From assembly GCA_945881865.1 (NCBI GenBank), contig CAMCVK010000017.1:1-53528 (forward strand): a DNA stretch of 53,528 nt, given 5' to 3'. Both the position numbers and the translations under genes were made by a program. The stretch is from Fimbriimonas ginsengisoli Gsoil 348 (GTDB taxonomy: Bacteria > Armatimonadota > Fimbriimonadia > Fimbriimonadales > Fimbriimonadaceae). Below, piece after piece: positions 7,080 to 23,749 of the stretch. Under the pieces are notes generated by a model, which was not told the origin of the DNA, made no database searches, and saw only the letters and a list, made by a program, of their open reading frames with translations. Numbering within the stretch: position 1 is the first letter of the stretch; every line of letters begins with the position of its first letter.

Positions 7080-7946
7080 GTGGCTCGCTGGGTATCATTT
7101 GAGGTCTTGAGTAAGGTTGACGCCTCCGCAAAAGGGGATTTCCTGCAGTGCCAGAATTGCAAGAAAATTATCTTCTCGGCCGATTTTGAACTTGGACAGA
7201 GGGTCTGCCCCTACTGCAATCATCATCACCGGATCTCCGCCCGAACCCGCATCGAATGGACGTTCGACCCGGGCTCGTTCCTTGAAGCCGATCTTGAGCT
7301 TTCGAGCGTCGACACGCTCGGATTTCCCGGCTACCAGGCAAAGCTGGATCAACTGCGCGAAAAAGGCGAACTCGCTGACTCAGTGGTAACCGGCACCGCG
7401 CGGCTAGAAGGGCGACCTGTCAGCGTTGGCGCTGCCGACTTTTCCTTTATCGGCGGTTCGATGGGCTCGGTCAACGGCGAAAAAATCACCCGCGCGCTGG
7501 AGCGAGCGGTGGATTCGCGCATGCCGGCCATCCTCTTTTGCACCTCCGGCGGAGCCCGAATGCAGGAAGGCATCCTGTCCTTAATGCAAATGGCAAAGAC
7601 GACCGCGGCCGTGGAGCGCTGCCGCGCGAACGGTGTGCCGTACATCGCCGTTTTCACCGACCCGACGATGGCCGGCGTGCTTGCCAGCTACGCCAGCGTG
7701 GCCGACGTCATTCTTGCTGAGCCCAAGGCACTCGTCGGTTTTGCCGGTCTGCGGGTGAGCAAGCAAGCGGGAGTCGGCAAGGTTCCCGATGATTTCCAAA
7801 CCGCCGAGTTCGTGCATGCGCACGGGATGGTCGACAAGATCGTTGCCCGCAAGGACCTTCGCCGAACATTGTCTGGTCTGGTTGCGACCCTCGGAGGCCA
7901 CCTTGCTTCGACCGATTCCGCTGAGCCGATTGGAGGAGAAGCGTAG
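7080..7946 (+). CDS. accD: Acetyl-CoA carboxylase carboxyltransferase, beta subunit
   Basis: The protein of about 288 residues carries the AccD zinc ribbon (Cys24, Cys27, Cys43, Cys46: CQNC and CPYC) followed by a crotonase-fold carboxyltransferase domain with ADFSFIGGSMGSVNGEKI, TSGGARMQEG and AEPKALVGFAG. With AccA it transfers the carboxyl group from biotin to acetyl-CoA to make malonyl-CoA. The GTG at 7080 gives 23 residues before the first cysteine, normal for the family. A TTG at 7107 is an alternative start. accA follows after 2 bases, clearly one operon. Confidence 0.95.
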   Translation: MARWVSFEVLSKVDASAKGDFLQCQNCKKIIFSADFELGQRVCPYCNHHHRISARTRIEWTFDPGSFLEADLELSSVDTLGFPGYQAKLDQLREKGELADSVVTGTARLEGRPVSVGAADFSFIGGSMGSVNGEKITRALERAVDSRMPAILFCTSGGARMQEGILSLMQMAKTTAAVERCRANGVPYIAVFTDPTMAGVLASYASVADVILAEPKALVGFAGLRVSKQAGVGKVPDDFQTAEFVHAHGMVDKIVARKDLRRTLSGLVATLGGHLASTDSAEPIGGEA

Positions 7947-7948
7947 CC

Positions 7949-8938
7949 ATGGCACGAGAATATGCAAAAACCCACAAAGAGTGGGAAAAACCTCTCACCG
8001 AGCTTGAGGACAACATCGCGAAGCTTCGCGAGCTTGCCCGGCGAGAGAACGACCCCATCAAGCGAAACGACTTGAATGAAAAGGCGGCGCGATACCAGGA
8101 GCAGTGTGATCGGTTCTTGAACCTGATGTACCGAAACCTTGGCGACTGGGAGAAGGTGCTCATCGCCCGGGCCGAGCGACGCCCCTATTCGTTGGATTAC
8201 ATCCAGGCGATATCTAGCGGGTTCATCGAGCTGGACGGTGATCGACTTGGGTTCTCGGACCACGCGATCATCGGCGGTCCTGCGTTGCTGGAAGGTCGCC
8301 CGGTCATGATCGTGGGCCACCAAAAGGGCCGAAACATTCAGGAGCGGCAGTTCCGAAACTTTGGCATGGCCAAGCCCGAAGGCTACCGAAAGGCGATCCG
8401 GCTTTTCGAGATGGCGGAGCGGTTCTCGATGCCCGTGATCTGTTTGGTTGACACGCCGGCGGCTGACCCCGGAGTCGAAAGCGAGTCGCGCGGCATCAGC
8501 GAAGCCATCGCGGCCGCGATGCTAAAGATGTTTGAACTCACCGTTCCCAGCGTCGCTGTCGTCATCGGCGAAGGCGGCAGCGGCGGAGCGATCGGAATTG
8601 CCGTCGCCGACCGGGTTTTGATGCAGGAATACGCCGTGTATTCGGTCATCCCGCCGGAAGGCTGCGCGGCGATTCTTTGGCGCGCGCCTGAGCGTGCCCC
8701 GGAAGCCGCCGAGGCCCTGCGGGTAACCGCGCCGTCGGCCCTGGAGTACGGCGTGATCGACGGAATCATCGAAGAGCCGCCGGGAGCCGCCCACCGGGAC
8801 CCGATTAGCGCGGCAGCCAACCTGAAGGAAGCCATCCTGAATGCGCTGACCGAACTTGACGGCATCGGACCGGAAACGCGAAAAGCGGCCCGGTACGAAA
8901 AGTTTCGCCAGATGGGCCGCTTCGCGACGCTTCGCTAG
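7949..8938 (+). CDS. accA: Acetyl-CoA carboxylase carboxyltransferase, alpha subunit
   Basis: The 329-residue product matches AccA throughout: an N-terminal helical segment, RPYSLDYIQAISSGFIELDGDR, GGPALLEGRPVMIVGHQKGR, FGMAKPEGYRKA, VDTPAADPGVESESRGISEAIA, EGGSGGAIGIAVADRVLM and the oxyanion-type end YSVIPPEGCAAILWR. It pairs with AccD in malonyl-CoA synthesis. GGAGGA precedes the ATG at a good distance, inside the end of accD. Its TAG stop shares the sequence CTAG with the stop of the convergent GH10 gene. Confidence 0.96.
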   Translation: MAREYAKTHKEWEKPLTELEDNIAKLRELARRENDPIKRNDLNEKAARYQEQCDRFLNLMYRNLGDWEKVLIARAERRPYSLDYIQAISSGFIELDGDRLGFSDHAIIGGPALLEGRPVMIVGHQKGRNIQERQFRNFGMAKPEGYRKAIRLFEMAERFSMPVICLVDTPAADPGVESESRGISEAIAAAMLKMFELTVPSVAVVIGEGGSGGAIGIAVADRVLMQEYAVYSVIPPEGCAAILWRAPERAPEAAEALRVTAPSALEYGVIDGIIEEPPGAAHRDPISAAANLKEAILNALTELDGIGPETRKAARYEKFRQMGRFATLR

Positions 8939-11094
8939 TTCAGCTTCACCGTCAACACGGTCGTCTTCCCTTTTTGGTGCGAGCCAACGACCGTGGCCTT
9001 GCGGCTGCCCTTTGTGGCTTGAACCGTGTACCCGCCGTAGAACGCCGAAACTCCCAACGAGCCGGCTTTGCCGGTCTTCAACGTCGTGTTCGTTCGCCAG
9101 GTTCGGTTCACAAGCCGGTCAAACGCCTCGGCGGCGGGACGTGGGCTCCAGTCGCGCCGGATGATCGCGCCGCCTTCGTTGGCGCGCCAGTGCGCGCCTT
9201 CCCAGAATCCCCAGATGATGAAGGCATCTACGGACGGATGGCTAAAGGAGACCGTCATGAAGTCGTTCAAGTGCTTTCCGTTCACCCGGTCGTCCTGAAC
9301 GCCGAGGTCGTATTCGGTGATCTCAAGCCGCTTCTTGTAGGCGGCCATCTCGTCCAGGATGCGATAAACCGTCGGCATCGGCGTGATCGGGACCCCGACG
9401 TGAGCCTGAATTCCGATGATGTCAAACGGAGCTTTTCCGTCGATGAGCTTTTGGATCCTGTCTTTCACCAAGGTTCGGTAGCCGGTGCCGACTTGGGCTT
9501 CCTCGGTGATGTCGTAGTCGTTGTAGGCAAGGAGCGCTCCGGGGTTTGCCTTGCGCGCGGTCTCGTAGACTTTCGGGAACTGGTCCCAGCCGATCTTGTC
9601 CCACAGGGCCGTGTTCGATCCGGCCTCGTTCACGACATCCCAAAGCTTGATCTGATTCTTGTATCGTGAGACGACTTCGGTCGCACGCGAGGTGAGCGTT
9701 GCTCGAAGCTGATCCGCGGGCAGGTCGAAGATTCCGTCCGGCAGATACTGCCGACCGCCCCAAACAACGTTGTGCCCTCGCACCGTGAACCGATTCTTGA
9801 CCAACCAGTCAATGGCCGCATCCGGCGGTCCATAGCCAGCCCGGGCTGTGTCCGTCCACTTGAGGTCGTTCTCCAGCGTGACCGTATTGAAGAGCCGCTT
9901 GAGAGTCGCCCGGAACTTGTCGCCGGTCGGCGTCTGGTCAAGGATGAGGGCCGCCGGGGCGGCGCTTCCGAACCGGAAGGCATGGGAATCCTGCCGGATC
10001 GTGACGCTTGCTCCGCTGACCGGACGTCCGCGACGGTCGACGACGCGGACGGTGAGGTTCCCTTTCCGAATCTTCTCAATCCGAGCCAGGGCATCTTTCC
10101 GCCAAGCGTCAGAGGGCGTTTCGCCACCGTAAAAATCGACGGTGGTTGGAAGTTTTGCGGGATCGGTCGAGCCGTAGTTAAGCAACGCGACATCCTTGAT
10201 CTCAACTTCCCCTTTTCCGTAGCCCAGGAACATCGTGAATTGCCCGCCACCCGCCGCAAGCGATTGACCGACTCTTCCGGCAAATCGTTGCTCCTTCCAT
10301 TCGGGGGTTAGGCGCACCGCCCCGGTGACGAACTTGGTGTGTGGCGGCGTGCTGAGCTCGAAGAACAGCGTCGCGCGGGAGCGCGTTTTGGATCGAACCT
10401 TTGCCTTCACCATTACGGTATCGCCAACCGTGATTTCGCCGGTCAGCGGCAGCCCAACAAGGTGGTCCCACGGATTTGCGCCTTCTTTTGCCGCGAAAGT
10501 CGCCCGGAGGCCGCCCGGAATTTCGGTCGTCTCCACCCCGGCTTTCCGCCAGGAATCCAACGTATAGCTGCCGAGAATATCGACCGGCTCGAACCGGCCA
10601 TCCGGGTCCGGTATGACGACCGCAGTTGGCCCCAGCTCAACCTGCCCGGCCCCGTAGTTCATCTGGAGGGCGATGTTCGCGGCCCCGGGCGCTAGGTCCT
10701 CACCGATGACTCCCGAAGCCCGGTACTCCTTCCAGTCCGGCGTCAGCACTTCCTCGCGTCGAACGAACTCTGGGTAGGGAGCAGATCCACGCTGAAGCAG
10801 GGCGTTCAGCTTGTTGCCGGTTGGACTTTTCGCCCAGAACCGAAGTTCCACCGCTTGCCCGTTTTTAAGCGCTTTCGGAATCGGTCGGTAGAGTCCGATC
10901 GCCCAGTTGGGCTGACCGCCCGGGTCAGGCAGCGTCACCCTCGCGGCTCGTCCAACCTGCGCATTGCCGGAATCGAACGTTTCGAAGCGGGTTCCGGCGA
11001 TTTCGCCCTTGTTCCAGTCCGCGAAGTCGGCCTTGAAATCCGCGCGGAAAAGCTCCAGCGGGGGAAGAAGCAACGCTGCTACCAGGATAACCAT
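8935..11094 (-). CDS. Multidomain endo-1,4-beta-xylanase, GH10, with two N-terminal beta-sandwich modules
   Basis: The 719-residue protein begins with a short hydrophobic segment (MVILVAALLLPP) that may be a minimal signal sequence. Two similar beta-sandwich modules follow at about 15-160 and 165-305, each of the carbohydrate-binding CBM4/9 style (F--DF-DW openings; repeated TP-WKE and NYGAG-VE / GYGKGEVE strings). A small linker domain (about 345-370, LTVRVVDRRGRPVSGA) precedes the GH10 barrel (about 375-665). The acid/base is Glu490 in LWDVVNEAG and the nucleophile Glu594 in LEITEYDL, with GHNVVWG at 440-446. GH10 enzymes cut xylan outside the cell. The two internal modules look like a duplication. 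Confidence 0.93.
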   Translation of the reverse strand: MVILVAALLLPPLELFRADFKADFADWNKGEIAGTRFETFDSGNAQVGRAARVTLPDPGGQPNWAIGLYRPIPKALKNGQAVELRFWAKSPTGNKLNALLQRGSAPYPEFVRREEVLTPDWKEYRASGVIGEDLAPGAANIALQMNYGAGQVELGPTAVVIPDPDGRFEPVDILGSYTLDSWRKAGVETTEIPGGLRATFAAKEGANPWDHLVGLPLTGEITVGDTVMVKAKVRSKTRSRATLFFELSTPPHTKFVTGAVRLTPEWKEQRFAGRVGQSLAAGGGQFTMFLGYGKGEVEIKDVALLNYGSTDPAKLPTTVDFYGGETPSDAWRKDALARIEKIRKGNLTVRVVDRRGRPVSGASVTIRQDSHAFRFGSAAPAALILDQTPTGDKFRATLKRLFNTVTLENDLKWTDTARAGYGPPDAAIDWLVKNRFTVRGHNVVWGGRQYLPDGIFDLPADQLRATLTSRATEVVSRYKNQIKLWDVVNEAGSNTALWDKIGWDQFPKVYETARKANPGALLAYNDYDITEEAQVGTGYRTLVKDRIQKLIDGKAPFDIIGIQAHVGVPITPMPTVYRILDEMAAYKKRLEITEYDLGVQDDRVNGKHLNDFMTVSFSHPSVDAFIIWGFWEGAHWRANEGGAIIRRDWSPRPAAEAFDRLVNRTWRTNTTLKTGKAGSLGVSAFYGGYTVQATKGSRKATVVGSHQKGKTTVLTVKLN

Positions 11095-13043: not shown

Positions 13044-13583
13044 ATGAAGTCGACGGAACTATCGGATCCAGAAGCTTGGAAAGCCGTCGTTCACCCGCTG
13101 CGGCTTGGCATTCTCCGGGTTCTCGGCAAAAACGAGCTGACGAACGAGGAGCTTGCCACTGAACTCGGCGTCGCCTCCGGGAAGCTGCACTTCCACACCA
13201 TGAAGTTGCTGAAGGCCGGCCTAATTGAGCCCGCAGGAACCCGCAAGAAGGGGCCGATTACGGAGAAGATGTACCGACGGACGGCGCACCAATTCACCGT
13301 ACCGATGTTCACCGACGGCGAGCGTTCTCCGCTGGGCCACTTTGTTTCGAACGCGCTGGCTCTCTACGAAAAGTCTTGGGAGGGCGATAATCTCACCCTT
13401 GCCCAACAGTTCGGCTTTCACCAGATGTTCTACGTGACCGAAGAAACCCGACAGCGCGTTTTCCAGCAATTTCGTGAGATCATGGCGGACTTAGAAGCGA
13501 GCTCCGTGGACTCGGAGACGCCAACCGCCGTCTTGTTCTCTGTAGCCGGCCTCGCTCACGAGGTCCCTGGCGAGCAAGCTTAG
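13044..13583 (+). CDS. ArsR-like winged-helix transcriptional regulator
   Basis: The 179-residue protein has an N-terminal winged helix (about residues 15-75) in the ArsR style: HPLRLGILRVL, ELTNEELATELGVASGKLHFH (recognition helix) and LLKAGLIEPAG with a basic wing TRKKGPITEK. The C-terminal half (about 80-179) is helical, has no known metal-binding cysteines and may serve as dimerisation or ligand domain. It lies 59 bases after aspS and overlaps the 3' end of carB-C by 4 bases tail to tail. AAGGA sits about 12 bases before the ATG. Target genes unknown. Confidence 0.85.
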   Translation: MKSTELSDPEAWKAVVHPLRLGILRVLGKNELTNEELATELGVASGKLHFHTMKLLKAGLIEPAGTRKKGPITEKMYRRTAHQFTVPMFTDGERSPLGHFVSNALALYEKSWEGDNLTLAQQFGFHQMFYVTEETRQRVFQQFREIMADLEASSVDSETPTAVLFSVAGLAHEVPGEQA

Positions 13584-17365: not shown

Positions 17366-19021
<1,656 letters not shown>

Positions 19022-19089
19022 TAAAAATCCATTGTGACAGAGTTGAGCCCCGGATTCTGCCCCGCCGCGAAGCGCGACATAATCTCCCC

Positions 19090-19671
19090 ATGGAACCCAC
19101 CTCGCAACCAAATCACGTGAAGCTTGGCGACGAGCTGGTAGGGACCATCATTAAGCCGATTGGCGGCCGCCGATTCGCATTGAAATGCAGCGGAGCGCCG
19201 AAAGATTGGACGGTGGAGTTGCAGTCGCGGCGCCCCGAAATGGTGGAGCCCGGCAGCCAGGGCATGTTCTGGGTTACCAAGATAACGCCGCTTCACATGA
19301 AGCTTTTGGTGAGTGATGACGACTTTGGTCGGCTGCCGATCAGCGACTCGATGGCCCCCCGCTATCTGGCCGCCCTGAAAGCTCTGTTGGGTACGGGCGC
19401 ACTCGACGGCGACCGGTTGGCAGATGCCCGCAGCATGATTTCTCGCGTTGAGAAGCGCGACCAAGCGGACTGGCTGAGCGTTTGGAAGCTGTTCAGCGAG
19501 CCCACCGCCGGCGATACGCAGGAATTCTCGCAGGCGCTAAACGCCATTCGCAACGCCCGCAAGGAACGCCCGACCGAGTTTGACGGCATGTTGGTCGAGT
19601 TCCGAGAGCGTTACGGCGAGGTGATCGACCTTGCGATCGTCCGCCTAAGCCGAAAGTCCAGCGCTGGCTAA
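19090..19671 (+). CDS. Conserved-looking protein of unknown function
   Basis: The 193-residue cytoplasmic protein is not recognised. The first 80 residues ([20 protein letters not shown], then [11 protein letters not shown]) look like a small beta-barrel of the S1/OB type, ending in [15 protein letters not shown]. The rest is helical and charged. There is no signal peptide or membrane segment. A nucleic-acid-binding role is a guess from the barrel-like start. The ATG at 19090 is preceded by CATAAT at 19078-19083, 6 bases away, and no Shine-Dalgarno, so the mRNA may be leaderless. It diverges from carB-N and precedes the GH28-like gene by 17 bases. Confidence 0.7.
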
Positions 19672-20998: not shown

Positions 20999-21532
20999 AT
21001 GCCAAAAAACCCTGACACCATAACCCCTGCCCAACGCGTTGACCGCTGGAAAAAGATGTGGGGTTCCCTGCGCGTTCTGTCTACCGAAGAAACCGAACTT
21101 GCCTTCGAGGAGTTCTGCGAAGCGCTCGTTCCGCGGCACATGCACAAGAAGTTTTTGCAGCTTTTTGGGGTGCCAAAGGCTCCGTTCGGCAACCGATTTT
21201 TTGCAGAGGAGTCGTCTTACCGCGACTGGGATACCCGGCTATCAACCTTTTTCACCTCCGGCACGGACCACGCGGAGGCGATCGTCATCTACGGCTCGCC
21301 CGATGCCCTCGAGGCGCACTACCTGCGCGGCCAGGTTCGGCGAACCTTGCGCGATATCATCATCGACGACTGGTTCGCCGCCTGCGCGATTGTGCGGGCG
21401 GCCGGAACCGTGCTCTATGTGTTTGTAGAGCCGAAAATGCGGGGCGTCATCGTCCTCTCCCAGAAGGATCCCAACTGGGAAGGCGACGAGCCGGAGGCAT
21501 TGGAACCGGCTCCGGATGAAAACCCAGACTAA
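20999..21532 (+). CDS. Hypothetical protein, 177 residues
   Basis: Not recognised. The protein is soluble and mixed alpha/beta, with aromatic-rich helices near the N-terminus (VDRWKKMWGSL, AFEEFCEALVPRHMHKKF), a middle strand (EAIVIYGSPDALEAHYLRG), hydrophobic strands (IIIDDWFAACAIV, TVLYVFVEP) and an acidic tail rich in Glu and Pro. No cysteine or histidine cluster or nucleotide motif is seen. It begins 8 bases after the GH28-like gene. Its stop overlaps the stop of the convergent trypsin-nuclease gene by 4 bases, so the two share a terminator region. Confidence 0.7.
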   Translation: MPKNPDTITPAQRVDRWKKMWGSLRVLSTEETELAFEEFCEALVPRHMHKKFLQLFGVPKAPFGNRFFAEESSYRDWDTRLSTFFTSGTDHAEAIVIYGSPDALEAHYLRGQVRRTLRDIIIDDWFAACAIVRAAGTVLYVFVEPKMRGVIVLSQKDPNWEGDEPEALEPAPDENPD

Positions 21533-23616
21533 CGAGCTTCCGCCGCCAAAAGCACCTCATCGAATACGACGCCGGTTAGTTCGGTGATTCGCGGCAAAGG
21601 AGTTCGGAACTTGAGGAACTTTGGATCCTCGAAGAGCTCCTTCACCAAGCCGAAGCGGGCAATCACGTCCTCTTGGCTAAACACGAACCCATAGGCTCGG
21701 AGCGCCCCTTCCTGAACGACAACCACTACTTTCCAGAATGAGTTCGGATATTGGATTCGCCCTCGGCTGAAGACCGTATAGGGATCGCTGGCGGCAAGAA
21801 CTGGCCCGGAAAGAATGCTCGCGCGGTTGTTGGCTTTGGCGAGCTCCTTCTTAACGTAGTCCTCGAAGTCGCCCCACACGCCGCGGACGCCAGCCGGTCC
21901 GCCGGAGTCACCGCCGGAGGCTTTATTGAAGGCTTCATGCTGCGGCGTGCAATTGGTCCAGTGGTACGAGTCACCGATCGCAAACTCAATCTCAAGATCG
22001 GTACGGCCCCAGCTATTGTCCTCCCGCTTGACAATGTGGCCTCGATCTACGCGGGTGGCCGGGCGATAGAAGTCGGCATCGGCAATCTCAAGACCGGCCG
22101 GGAGCCGAGGATCTCCCCTCCAGTTCCCGTCGCCAAACGAGCCGCTGCTTCGGCCGCCACGCATTGCCGGTGAGTAGTCCACGTTACTAGCTGCCCAATG
22201 CATCAACCGGCGCATCTTGTTAAACACCAACGAAAAGTGGTGATACTTGAGAACGACGGGCGTTCCGTTCTCGGCAAACAGTTCGGAAGTCCGATCGGCA
22301 GATACGGTCGGCAGTGGAACGCGAAACGCCTCGCCCAGGAAGTTCTCGTCGAAGCCCGGGCGGTTTGCGTAGTCGGGGTCGAATCTGACCGACTTCTCCG
22401 CCGCCGTAACCGGCGCCTCCTCAACCGGGGCCGACGCGGACACAACCGAACCGGCATAGAAGTTGAACGTTGCCGGACCGTTCACCACGATCTGCTGCAC
22501 CACGGTTCCGCCGGTTGCTAACGCGGCGGGCGGCGCTATCGATCGAGCGGACTCGGCCGGGCGCAAAGTCGGCTGGGCGGCGGTAAACAGGTCAAGTGGG
22601 TCGGACGTCGTTTCCATAAATTCTTCTAGTCTTCGCTGGTGGTCTGGGTTGTCTAGCTTCTGCTTTGAAACAAAATTGATGATCGCGCTGATTCGGACGC
22701 CCTCGTTTCCGAGCCACTTCACGTCCTCGTCGGACTCCTCGTTCGGGTCCCAAACGTTTTCGTCGACGTTGAGGATTCGGCCCTCCGAGTCTCGAGCGGG
22801 CACGGCTGAGCGATGTAGCCCGACGAGCTCCCAGTTTTTACTGAGCAGAGGCGACCCGGAGGACCCAGGCTTGGTGTCGGTCTGATAGGTCATCGCGCCG
22901 GCATCCGCAAGCCCGGTGAGGTGATTGTTGGTAAACGCGTAGTGTTTCGGCTCACCCTTCGGGTGCTGGATAATGTTGATCGGGTCACCGACTAAAATCT
23001 TGCCCACAGCAGAGCTCGGTTGGAGCACTCCGAGAGTTGGCAAAGCCCCGGTCTTATCCGTGGTCGCATCCAGCGCAACCAGCGCGAAGTCGAGATCTTT
23101 ATCGGCCAAGAAGAAGACGTCGGGCGCAAAGTCGATGAAGATTCCGGTAGCAATTCCTTGATCCAATCGCTCGTACAAGAAGTTTGCCTGGGCATACCGC
23201 GGCTCGTCGCGCTCGCCAAAGACATGATAGTTAGTGAGGAGCAAGCCCGGATACACGATAAAGCCGGTTGCAACGCCTATCGGCACCATGCCCGCATCCG
23301 CCCTCTGGACGATCCGTGCGACGGCGCGGCCGGCAAGGTGTGCCGCCTGGTCCGGCGGTCGCATCGACCAATCGAGGGAGGGTCCGATCTGCCGCTCCAA
23401 GAGCGCGGGCATAGAACCTGTCGCCAAAGCCGTCTTCGCTGCCGCCAAAGTTGCTTCGCGCGAGTCGAAGCGCCTTCGCCGAAACGCCGATTCTACATTT
23501 GCCCCGGTCGGCTTCGAATCGGTCCCGCCCGGCACACCAAGCGTGGTCCAAGTTTGCTCGGCTGCGTTGAGCCTTTCGAGGCTTTGCTGGGCAATTTTCT
23601 CGGCAAGGGTAGGCAT
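21529..23616 (-). CDS. Trypsin-like protease fused to a DNA/RNA non-specific endonuclease
   Basis: The 695-residue protein has three parts. Residues 1-110 are helical and unassigned, with an Arg cluster (FRRRRF). Residues about 111-320 form a trypsin-like serine protease with an apparent triad: His131 (LLTNYHVF), Asp176 (DLDFALV) and Ser253 (PGSSGSP). A linker with VVQQIVVNGPATFNFYAGS (373-391) follows. Residues about 415-690 are a NUC1-type endonuclease with the DRGH motif at 524-527 (VDRGHIVKRED) and the metal-binding Asn555 in WTNCTPQHEAFN. There is no signal peptide, so it acts in the cytoplasm or exits by another route. The ATG at 23616 has TTGACG-17-TAGGGT ending 7 bases upstream. A protease-gated nuclease, perhaps for defence or programmed death, is inference. 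Confidence 0.88.
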   Translation of the reverse strand: MPTLAEKIAQQSLERLNAAEQTWTTLGVPGGTDSKPTGANVESAFRRRRFDSREATLAAAKTALATGSMPALLERQIGPSLDWSMRPPDQAAHLAGRAVARIVQRADAGMVPIGVATGFIVYPGLLLTNYHVFGERDEPRYAQANFLYERLDQGIATGIFIDFAPDVFFLADKDLDFALVALDATTDKTGALPTLGVLQPSSAVGKILVGDPINIIQHPKGEPKHYAFTNNHLTGLADAGAMTYQTDTKPGSSGSPLLSKNWELVGLHRSAVPARDSEGRILNVDENVWDPNEESDEDVKWLGNEGVRISAIINFVSKQKLDNPDHQRRLEEFMETTSDPLDLFTAAQPTLRPAESARSIAPPAALATGGTVVQQIVVNGPATFNFYAGSVVSASAPVEEAPVTAAEKSVRFDPDYANRPGFDENFLGEAFRVPLPTVSADRTSELFAENGTPVVLKYHHFSLVFNKMRRLMHWAASNVDYSPAMRGGRSSGSFGDGNWRGDPRLPAGLEIADADFYRPATRVDRGHIVKREDNSWGRTDLEIEFAIGDSYHWTNCTPQHEAFNKASGGDSGGPAGVRGVWGDFEDYVKKELAKANNRASILSGPVLAASDPYTVFSRGRIQYPNSFWKVVVVVQEGALRAYGFVFSQEDVIARFGLVKELFEDPKFLKFRTPLPRITELTGVVFDEVLLAAEAR

Positions 23617-23623
23617 GATCAAA

Positions 23624-23652
23624 ACCCTACTCCGGTGAGAAACTTTCGTCAA
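23624..23652 (-). promoter_or_regulatory. Promoter of the trypsin-nuclease gene, possibly leaderless
   Basis: Minus strand TTGACG (23647-23652), a 17-base spacer, then TAGGGT (23624-23629). Only 7 bases (TTTGATC) separate the -10 from the ATG, so transcription would begin at or next to the start codon. The -10 is weak but fits TANNNT. Confidence 0.55.
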
Positions 23653-23749
23653 GAGACTTTTTGTTAAGGTTTCTTCATATTTTGCCGGGCAAACCATAAA
23701 CGCGTTAACGTCAATCGAACCGAGGAGCGGATAGACTCGTCTGACGACG

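Follow-up and report, generated by a model that had tools for sequence, protein, structure and literature searches.

Fusion of a trypsin-like domain to an Endonuclease_NS domain was noted in Fusobacterium in 2008 (PMC2605481). Kaur et al. (2020) described NucA-trypsin proteins as a conflict system ('System 3'), defined by a trypsin-like peptidase that is fused to a NucA/Endonuclease_NS nuclease or lies in the same operon, and predicted that a proteolytic cascade deploys the nuclease (PMC7159879). These systems were reported mostly from alphaproteobacteria, with EAD1 or STAND/bDLD2 components in a subset only (PMC7159879). LypC, studied in 2026, is part of the CARD-NLR-like LypABC system of Caulobacter crescentus, which functions in the release of gene transfer agents (PMC13236601). 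Lysis is abolished by the LypC mutation S296A but not by the nuclease mutations H471A and N505A (PMC13236601). LypC becomes unstable when its nuclease domain is deleted, and this domain is missing from one Caulobacter homologue (PMC13236601). In the Hachiman (HamM/protease-HamA) and AVAST systems, a trypsin-like protease activates an MBL-fold nuclease (Tuck et al., 2025; PMC12799240).

We analysed a stretch of 53,528 nucleotides (the window) that encodes a protease-nuclease fusion, P0001, tail to tail with a second gene, P0002. The features are as follows.

20999-21532, plus strand: P0002, 177 residues, of no known family; a convergent neighbour, judged to lie outside the system
21529-23616, minus strand: gene for the protease-nuclease fusion P0001, 695 residues, from its reading frame and domain profiles
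23287-23616, minus strand: N-terminal extension of P0001, residues 1-110, with two predicted helices and the E-R-x-I-G segment of the family immediately before the protease
22816-23271, minus strand: trypsin-like peptidase domain, residues 116-267, triad H131/D176/S253 (PF13365, E 1.8e-19)
22300-22626, minus strand: variable linker, residues ~331-439, ending in a conserved D-Y-x-x-R-x-G-Y-D-x-x-F-L-G-like segment
21556-22299, minus strand: NucA/Endonuclease_NS domain, residues 440-687, with the DRGH histidine H527 and N555 (PF01223, E 1.3e-35)

The first ATG of the frame would place the gene at 21529-23697; we chose the ATG at 23616, which matches the residue numbers of an earlier note on this DNA. 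The end coordinate in that note, 23652, is 36 bases upstream of the start implied by its own numbering. Its positions for the protease triad and for the nuclease residues H527 and N555 were right, and all of these residues are conserved in homologues. Both the Trypsin_2 and the Endonuclease_NS matches were far above the Pfam cut-offs. A search of the genome identified P0001 as its sole Endonuclease_NS gene and as one of three Trypsin_2 genes, the other two lying on other contigs. No model in Pfam, NCBIfam or PADLOC matched the whole fusion or its N-terminus.

We then compared P0001 with the described systems. Like the NucA-trypsin proteins, it joins a trypsin-like peptidase and a NucA/Endonuclease_NS domain with catalytic His and Asn in one protein and, judged from its sequence, has the defining features of that family. 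It differs in being a single gene that has neither EAD1 or STAND genes nor further protease genes as neighbours, and in lying outside the alphaproteobacteria, the source of most reports. The absence of any EAD1 or STAND/bDLD2 Pfam match in its flanking genes is compatible with membership, as these components are optional. The architecture and the order of residues also agree with the published description of LypC, which has an N-terminal trypsin-like domain, a flexible linker and a C-terminal endonuclease with catalytic His and Asn; however, no LypA (CARD-protease-ATPase) or LypB (NLR) gene adjoins P0001. A search for LypB-type ATPases in the genome revealed no NB-ARC domain, one NACHT domain above cut-off on another contig and two AAA_16 domains above cut-off elsewhere. 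The HamM/protease-HamA and AVAST systems, where a trypsin-like protease likewise controls a nuclease, offer an analogy for how P0001 might work, but in those systems the MBL-fold nuclease has a gene of its own and the protease forms one chain with a defence enzyme such as HamA; they belong to a different family. As its nuclease is an Endonuclease_NS domain within the same protein, P0001 is no member of the MBL nuclease-trypsin pairs. P0001 thus belongs to a known family of fusions, which is found scattered across the plasmids of many bacteria, and the 'undescribed system' suggested earlier had in fact been noted in 2008 and 2020 and studied as LypC in 2026. Since both the architecture and the proposed logic, in which the protease deploys the nuclease, are already in print, the discovery is a modest one.

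We propose that P0001 is a stand-alone, horizontally acquired NucA-trypsin (LypC-type) protein that works intracellularly in defence or cell death, as an effector whose protease controls its nuclease, and we hold this to be a little above an even chance. At rest, the enzyme would be silent. A trigger, perhaps acting through the conserved N-terminal extension, would activate the trypsin domain, which would then cut its own linker and/or other proteins. Cleavage would release or unleash the nuclease, and the ensuing degradation of nucleic acid would lead to cell death or growth arrest. P0001 is probably a suicide or anti-phage weapon. The NucA-trypsin prediction (PMC7159879) and the protease-activated nucleases of Hachiman and AVAST (PMC12799240) serve as precedents. 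LypC, however, is the one fusion of the same architecture for which we found tests, and there lysis requires the protease serine but not the nuclease residues H471 and N505 (PMC13236601). This raises the strongest rival to our proposal, namely that the output is the protease itself, which, as in LypC, cleaves a cellular target to cause lysis or death, the nuclease being stabilising or secondary. The LypC mutants, the instability of LypC on deletion of its nuclease domain and the Caulobacter homologue without that domain (PMC13236601) all favour this reading; for P0001, nevertheless, we consider it rather unlikely, for reasons given by the homologues.

In an alignment, none of the fusions departed from the protease triad, and the nuclease His and Asn were likewise unchanged, except in L067, whose C-terminal part did not align at that place. 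Retention of both active sites across distant homologues, in domains that score well over the cut-offs, argues for a nuclease under protease control. It counts against the protease as the output, since a purely structural nuclease domain would be expected to lose its catalytic residues. Selection points in the same direction. Between the orthologues of two sister species of the genus (G013 and G014), dN/dS was about 0.05 in the protease, 0.06 in both the nuclease and the N-terminus and 0.11 in the linker, the most relaxed region; these values are rough, as dS was high and synonymous sites were near saturation. The ratios suggest that selection maintains the protease, the nuclease and the N-terminal extension in these orthologues. 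Purifying selection on both domains agrees with our proposal, and that the nuclease is under the same constraint as the protease counts against a secondary role for it. Among the relatives, two (L065 and L066) have protease and nuclease as separate adjacent genes, which favours our proposal; the protease-only relatives (L022-L028), with an intact triad in L022 and L024, favour instead the protease as the output. A further protease-only relative in G008 (L047, 8025-9092) has its triad His and Asp replaced and is a candidate pseudo-protease; an AbiEii-like gene, recognised by eye, lies ~5 kb from it.

An N-terminal extension with the E-R-x-I-G segment is conserved across the family, and because it is common to the nuclease-less relatives, it seems to travel with the protease. 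An AlphaFold model of P0001 built from eight input sequences was of low confidence (mean pLDDT 42), and in it the N-terminal ~110 residues were rich in helix. The helical, sensor-like N-terminus (residues 1-110) of the earlier note is therefore helical in a low-confidence model only and is a conserved family extension, and nothing supported the sensor role. We could identify no protease cleavage site in P0001, and the model was too poor to show a blocked nuclease; both points weigh against our proposal. Within the linker, residues ~380-400 (window ~22420-22480) include a strand-like G-P-A/V-T-F/I-N segment common to P0001 and a Rhizobium etli protein. Several other members of the family have V-P-L-x-I-T-V-S-L-G at this position. 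Both segments look like short beta motifs and could mediate assembly.

We next considered the distribution of the fusion. Four of the 101 genomes covered by a search for relatives gave any match, as did ten of the 291 genomes of the phylum, where several matches were to a single domain only; the family is rare and patchy within the phylum. Matches were present on 119 plasmid records (44 of them conjugative), 33 of which cover at least 80% of P0001, from Rhizobium, Sinorhizobium, Mesorhizobium, Bradyrhizobium, cyanobacteria, Paenibacillus, Cupriavidus and others. No relative was detected in viral contigs, and phages gave just two weak matches, to the nuclease domain only. The closest homologue found, IE4771_RS21570 (WP_080711017.1) on the R. 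etli plasmid pRetIE4771a, is 39-40% identical over ~90% of the length, while identity to the congeneric G013 and G014 proteins is only 28%. A maximum-likelihood tree placed P0001 as sister to the R. etli protein (support 100/100), separate from its congeners, which suggests, within the limits of sampling, horizontal transfer and fits a single gene that moves in this way. The patchy distribution, and the occurrence of relatives on mobile plasmids with defence genes in their vicinity, agree with a role in defence.

The convergent neighbour P0002 had been put forward as a tail-to-tail partner, perhaps an inhibitor or cofactor of the fusion. The reading frame is real, with orthologues in 12 relatives (46-61% identity), and so is its 4-base overlap with P0001 (CTAA). 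Adjacency, convergence and overlap would suit a two-gene system in which P0002 inhibits or assists P0001. However, 12 of the 13 genomes with P0002 have no fusion gene beside it, and three of them (G008, G013 and G014) carry a P0001 relative at another site. In G013 and G014, the fusion overlaps a leuB-like gene (recognised by eye) by the same CTAA, and other convergent pairs in the window overlap by four bases at 8935-8938 and 13580-13583. The overlap is thus a common convergent one and no sign of partnership. The two genes are, moreover, on opposite strands and have no common transcript. With P0002 unlinked to the fusion in every other genome, we rejected it as a partner and give a two-gene system next to no credence. 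Nor did any other gene of the window lie beside the fusion in ten neighbourhoods examined; the exceptions were a short pilin-type match at one of them and generic matches to histidine kinases at another.

The earlier note had proposed a search for conserved neighbours and defence islands around the homologues. On seven Rhizobiales plasmids, defence-type annotations (restriction, methylase, HEPN, SIR2, CHAT, patatin, phospholipase D, pYEATS, helicase or toxin-antitoxin) were carried by 16 of the 92 annotated genes around the relatives, compared to 4 of 125 genes in control regions taken from these plasmids (Fisher P 0.0004), an enrichment that is indicative only because the keywords were hand-picked after the test regions had been viewed. 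The R. etli homologue adjoins an integrase and a helicase/PIN/restriction cluster. In contrast to this plasmid-borne homologue, P0001 lies among housekeeping genes, and P0002 is not a conserved neighbour. The window otherwise encodes carB-like, 5'-nucleotidase, GH28, GDSL lipase, prepilin, P-II and histidine kinase proteins, a primase, a DNA ligase, a class II tRNA synthetase, a Pup ligase and an acetyl-CoA carboxylase, among others, and the site of P0001 itself is therefore no defence island. The strongest PADLOC matches in the window, of a primase-like protein to RT_UG29/RTasDnaG, of an adjoining gene to MzaA and of others to AAA ATPases, look like housekeeping cross-matches. A compositional island at 21-24 kb was also rejected, GC being the same as in the rest of the window; no informative repeats flanked P0001, and a promoter scan gave nothing above chance. 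The housekeeping surroundings, and the lack of an NLR, CARD or STAND gene beside P0001, count against our proposal.

The location of the protein in the cell bears on two further explanations. A simple hydropathy test found neither a signal peptide-like hydrophobic N-terminus nor a transmembrane segment; the highest 19-residue Kyte-Doolittle mean was 1.1 by this crude measure, for windows starting in residues 1-60. Together with a single cysteine, this is in keeping with a cytoplasmic protein, and the description of P0001 as a cytoplasmic-looking fusion with both active sites intact holds. The lack of export signals agrees with an effector that acts inside its own cell. Many NUC1 nucleases are digestive, and P0001 could accordingly be an ordinary degradative enzyme for nutrient scavenging or nucleic acid turnover. 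However, it differs from secreted NUC1 nucleases of the Serratia NucA type in having no signal peptide by the crude hydropathy test, and its fused intact protease, the patchy, horizontally moving distribution and the defence-type neighbours of plasmid relatives make this explanation very improbable. NucA-type nucleases are also common toxin domains, and one relative (L063) lies within a plasmid type II secretion operon, as would suit an antibacterial toxin whose protease frees the nuclease inside a competitor while an immunity protein shields the producer. P0001 has, though, no signal peptide or recognisable trafficking domain, secretion genes are absent near most other relatives, and there is no candidate immunity gene, as P0002 is not co-inherited with the fusion. 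We therefore regard a delivered toxin as improbable.

Taken together, we favour an intracellular effector in which the protease controls the nuclease. If this is true, the predicted NucA-trypsin family reaches beyond the groups of most reports, and the fusion moves on its own, with no NLR switch alongside. P0001 would then offer a simple way of testing whether the protease gates the nuclease in such fusions, a point that the LypC data leave undecided. More tentatively, P0001 and similar lone fusions might be complete one-gene immune devices, combining sensing by the N-terminal extension, a proteolytic switch and a nuclease with no NLR partners; we think this possible, but not probable.

Several genes near the relatives were also observed. 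At three loci on rhizobial plasmids (L058, 6897-9746; L060, 7713-11933; L066, 6927-9922), an S1/P1-nuclease family gene adjoins the fusion or the split pair, and in Bradyrhizobium a SLOG-cluster4 protein then follows; the fusion and the S1/P1-nuclease gene may form a recurring operon. Protease-only relatives in Roseovarius and Pseudovibrio (L022, 6771-7814 with 7836-8981; likewise L023, L024 and L026) have a head-to-head neighbour of ~345 residues. These neighbours, of which the Roseovarius one has no Pfam family, are apparently alike as judged by eye and are possibly true partner genes of the protease-only relatives. In G013 and G014, an Ion_trans_2 ion-channel gene (L045, 11426-12166; L046, 5773-6513) precedes the fusion by ~50 bases, on the same strand. 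Within the window, the carbamoyl-phosphate synthase large chain at 17366-19111 (minus strand) is only 581 residues long, with D1-D3 corresponding to the N-terminal half, and carB may be split, with its C-terminal half encoded elsewhere.
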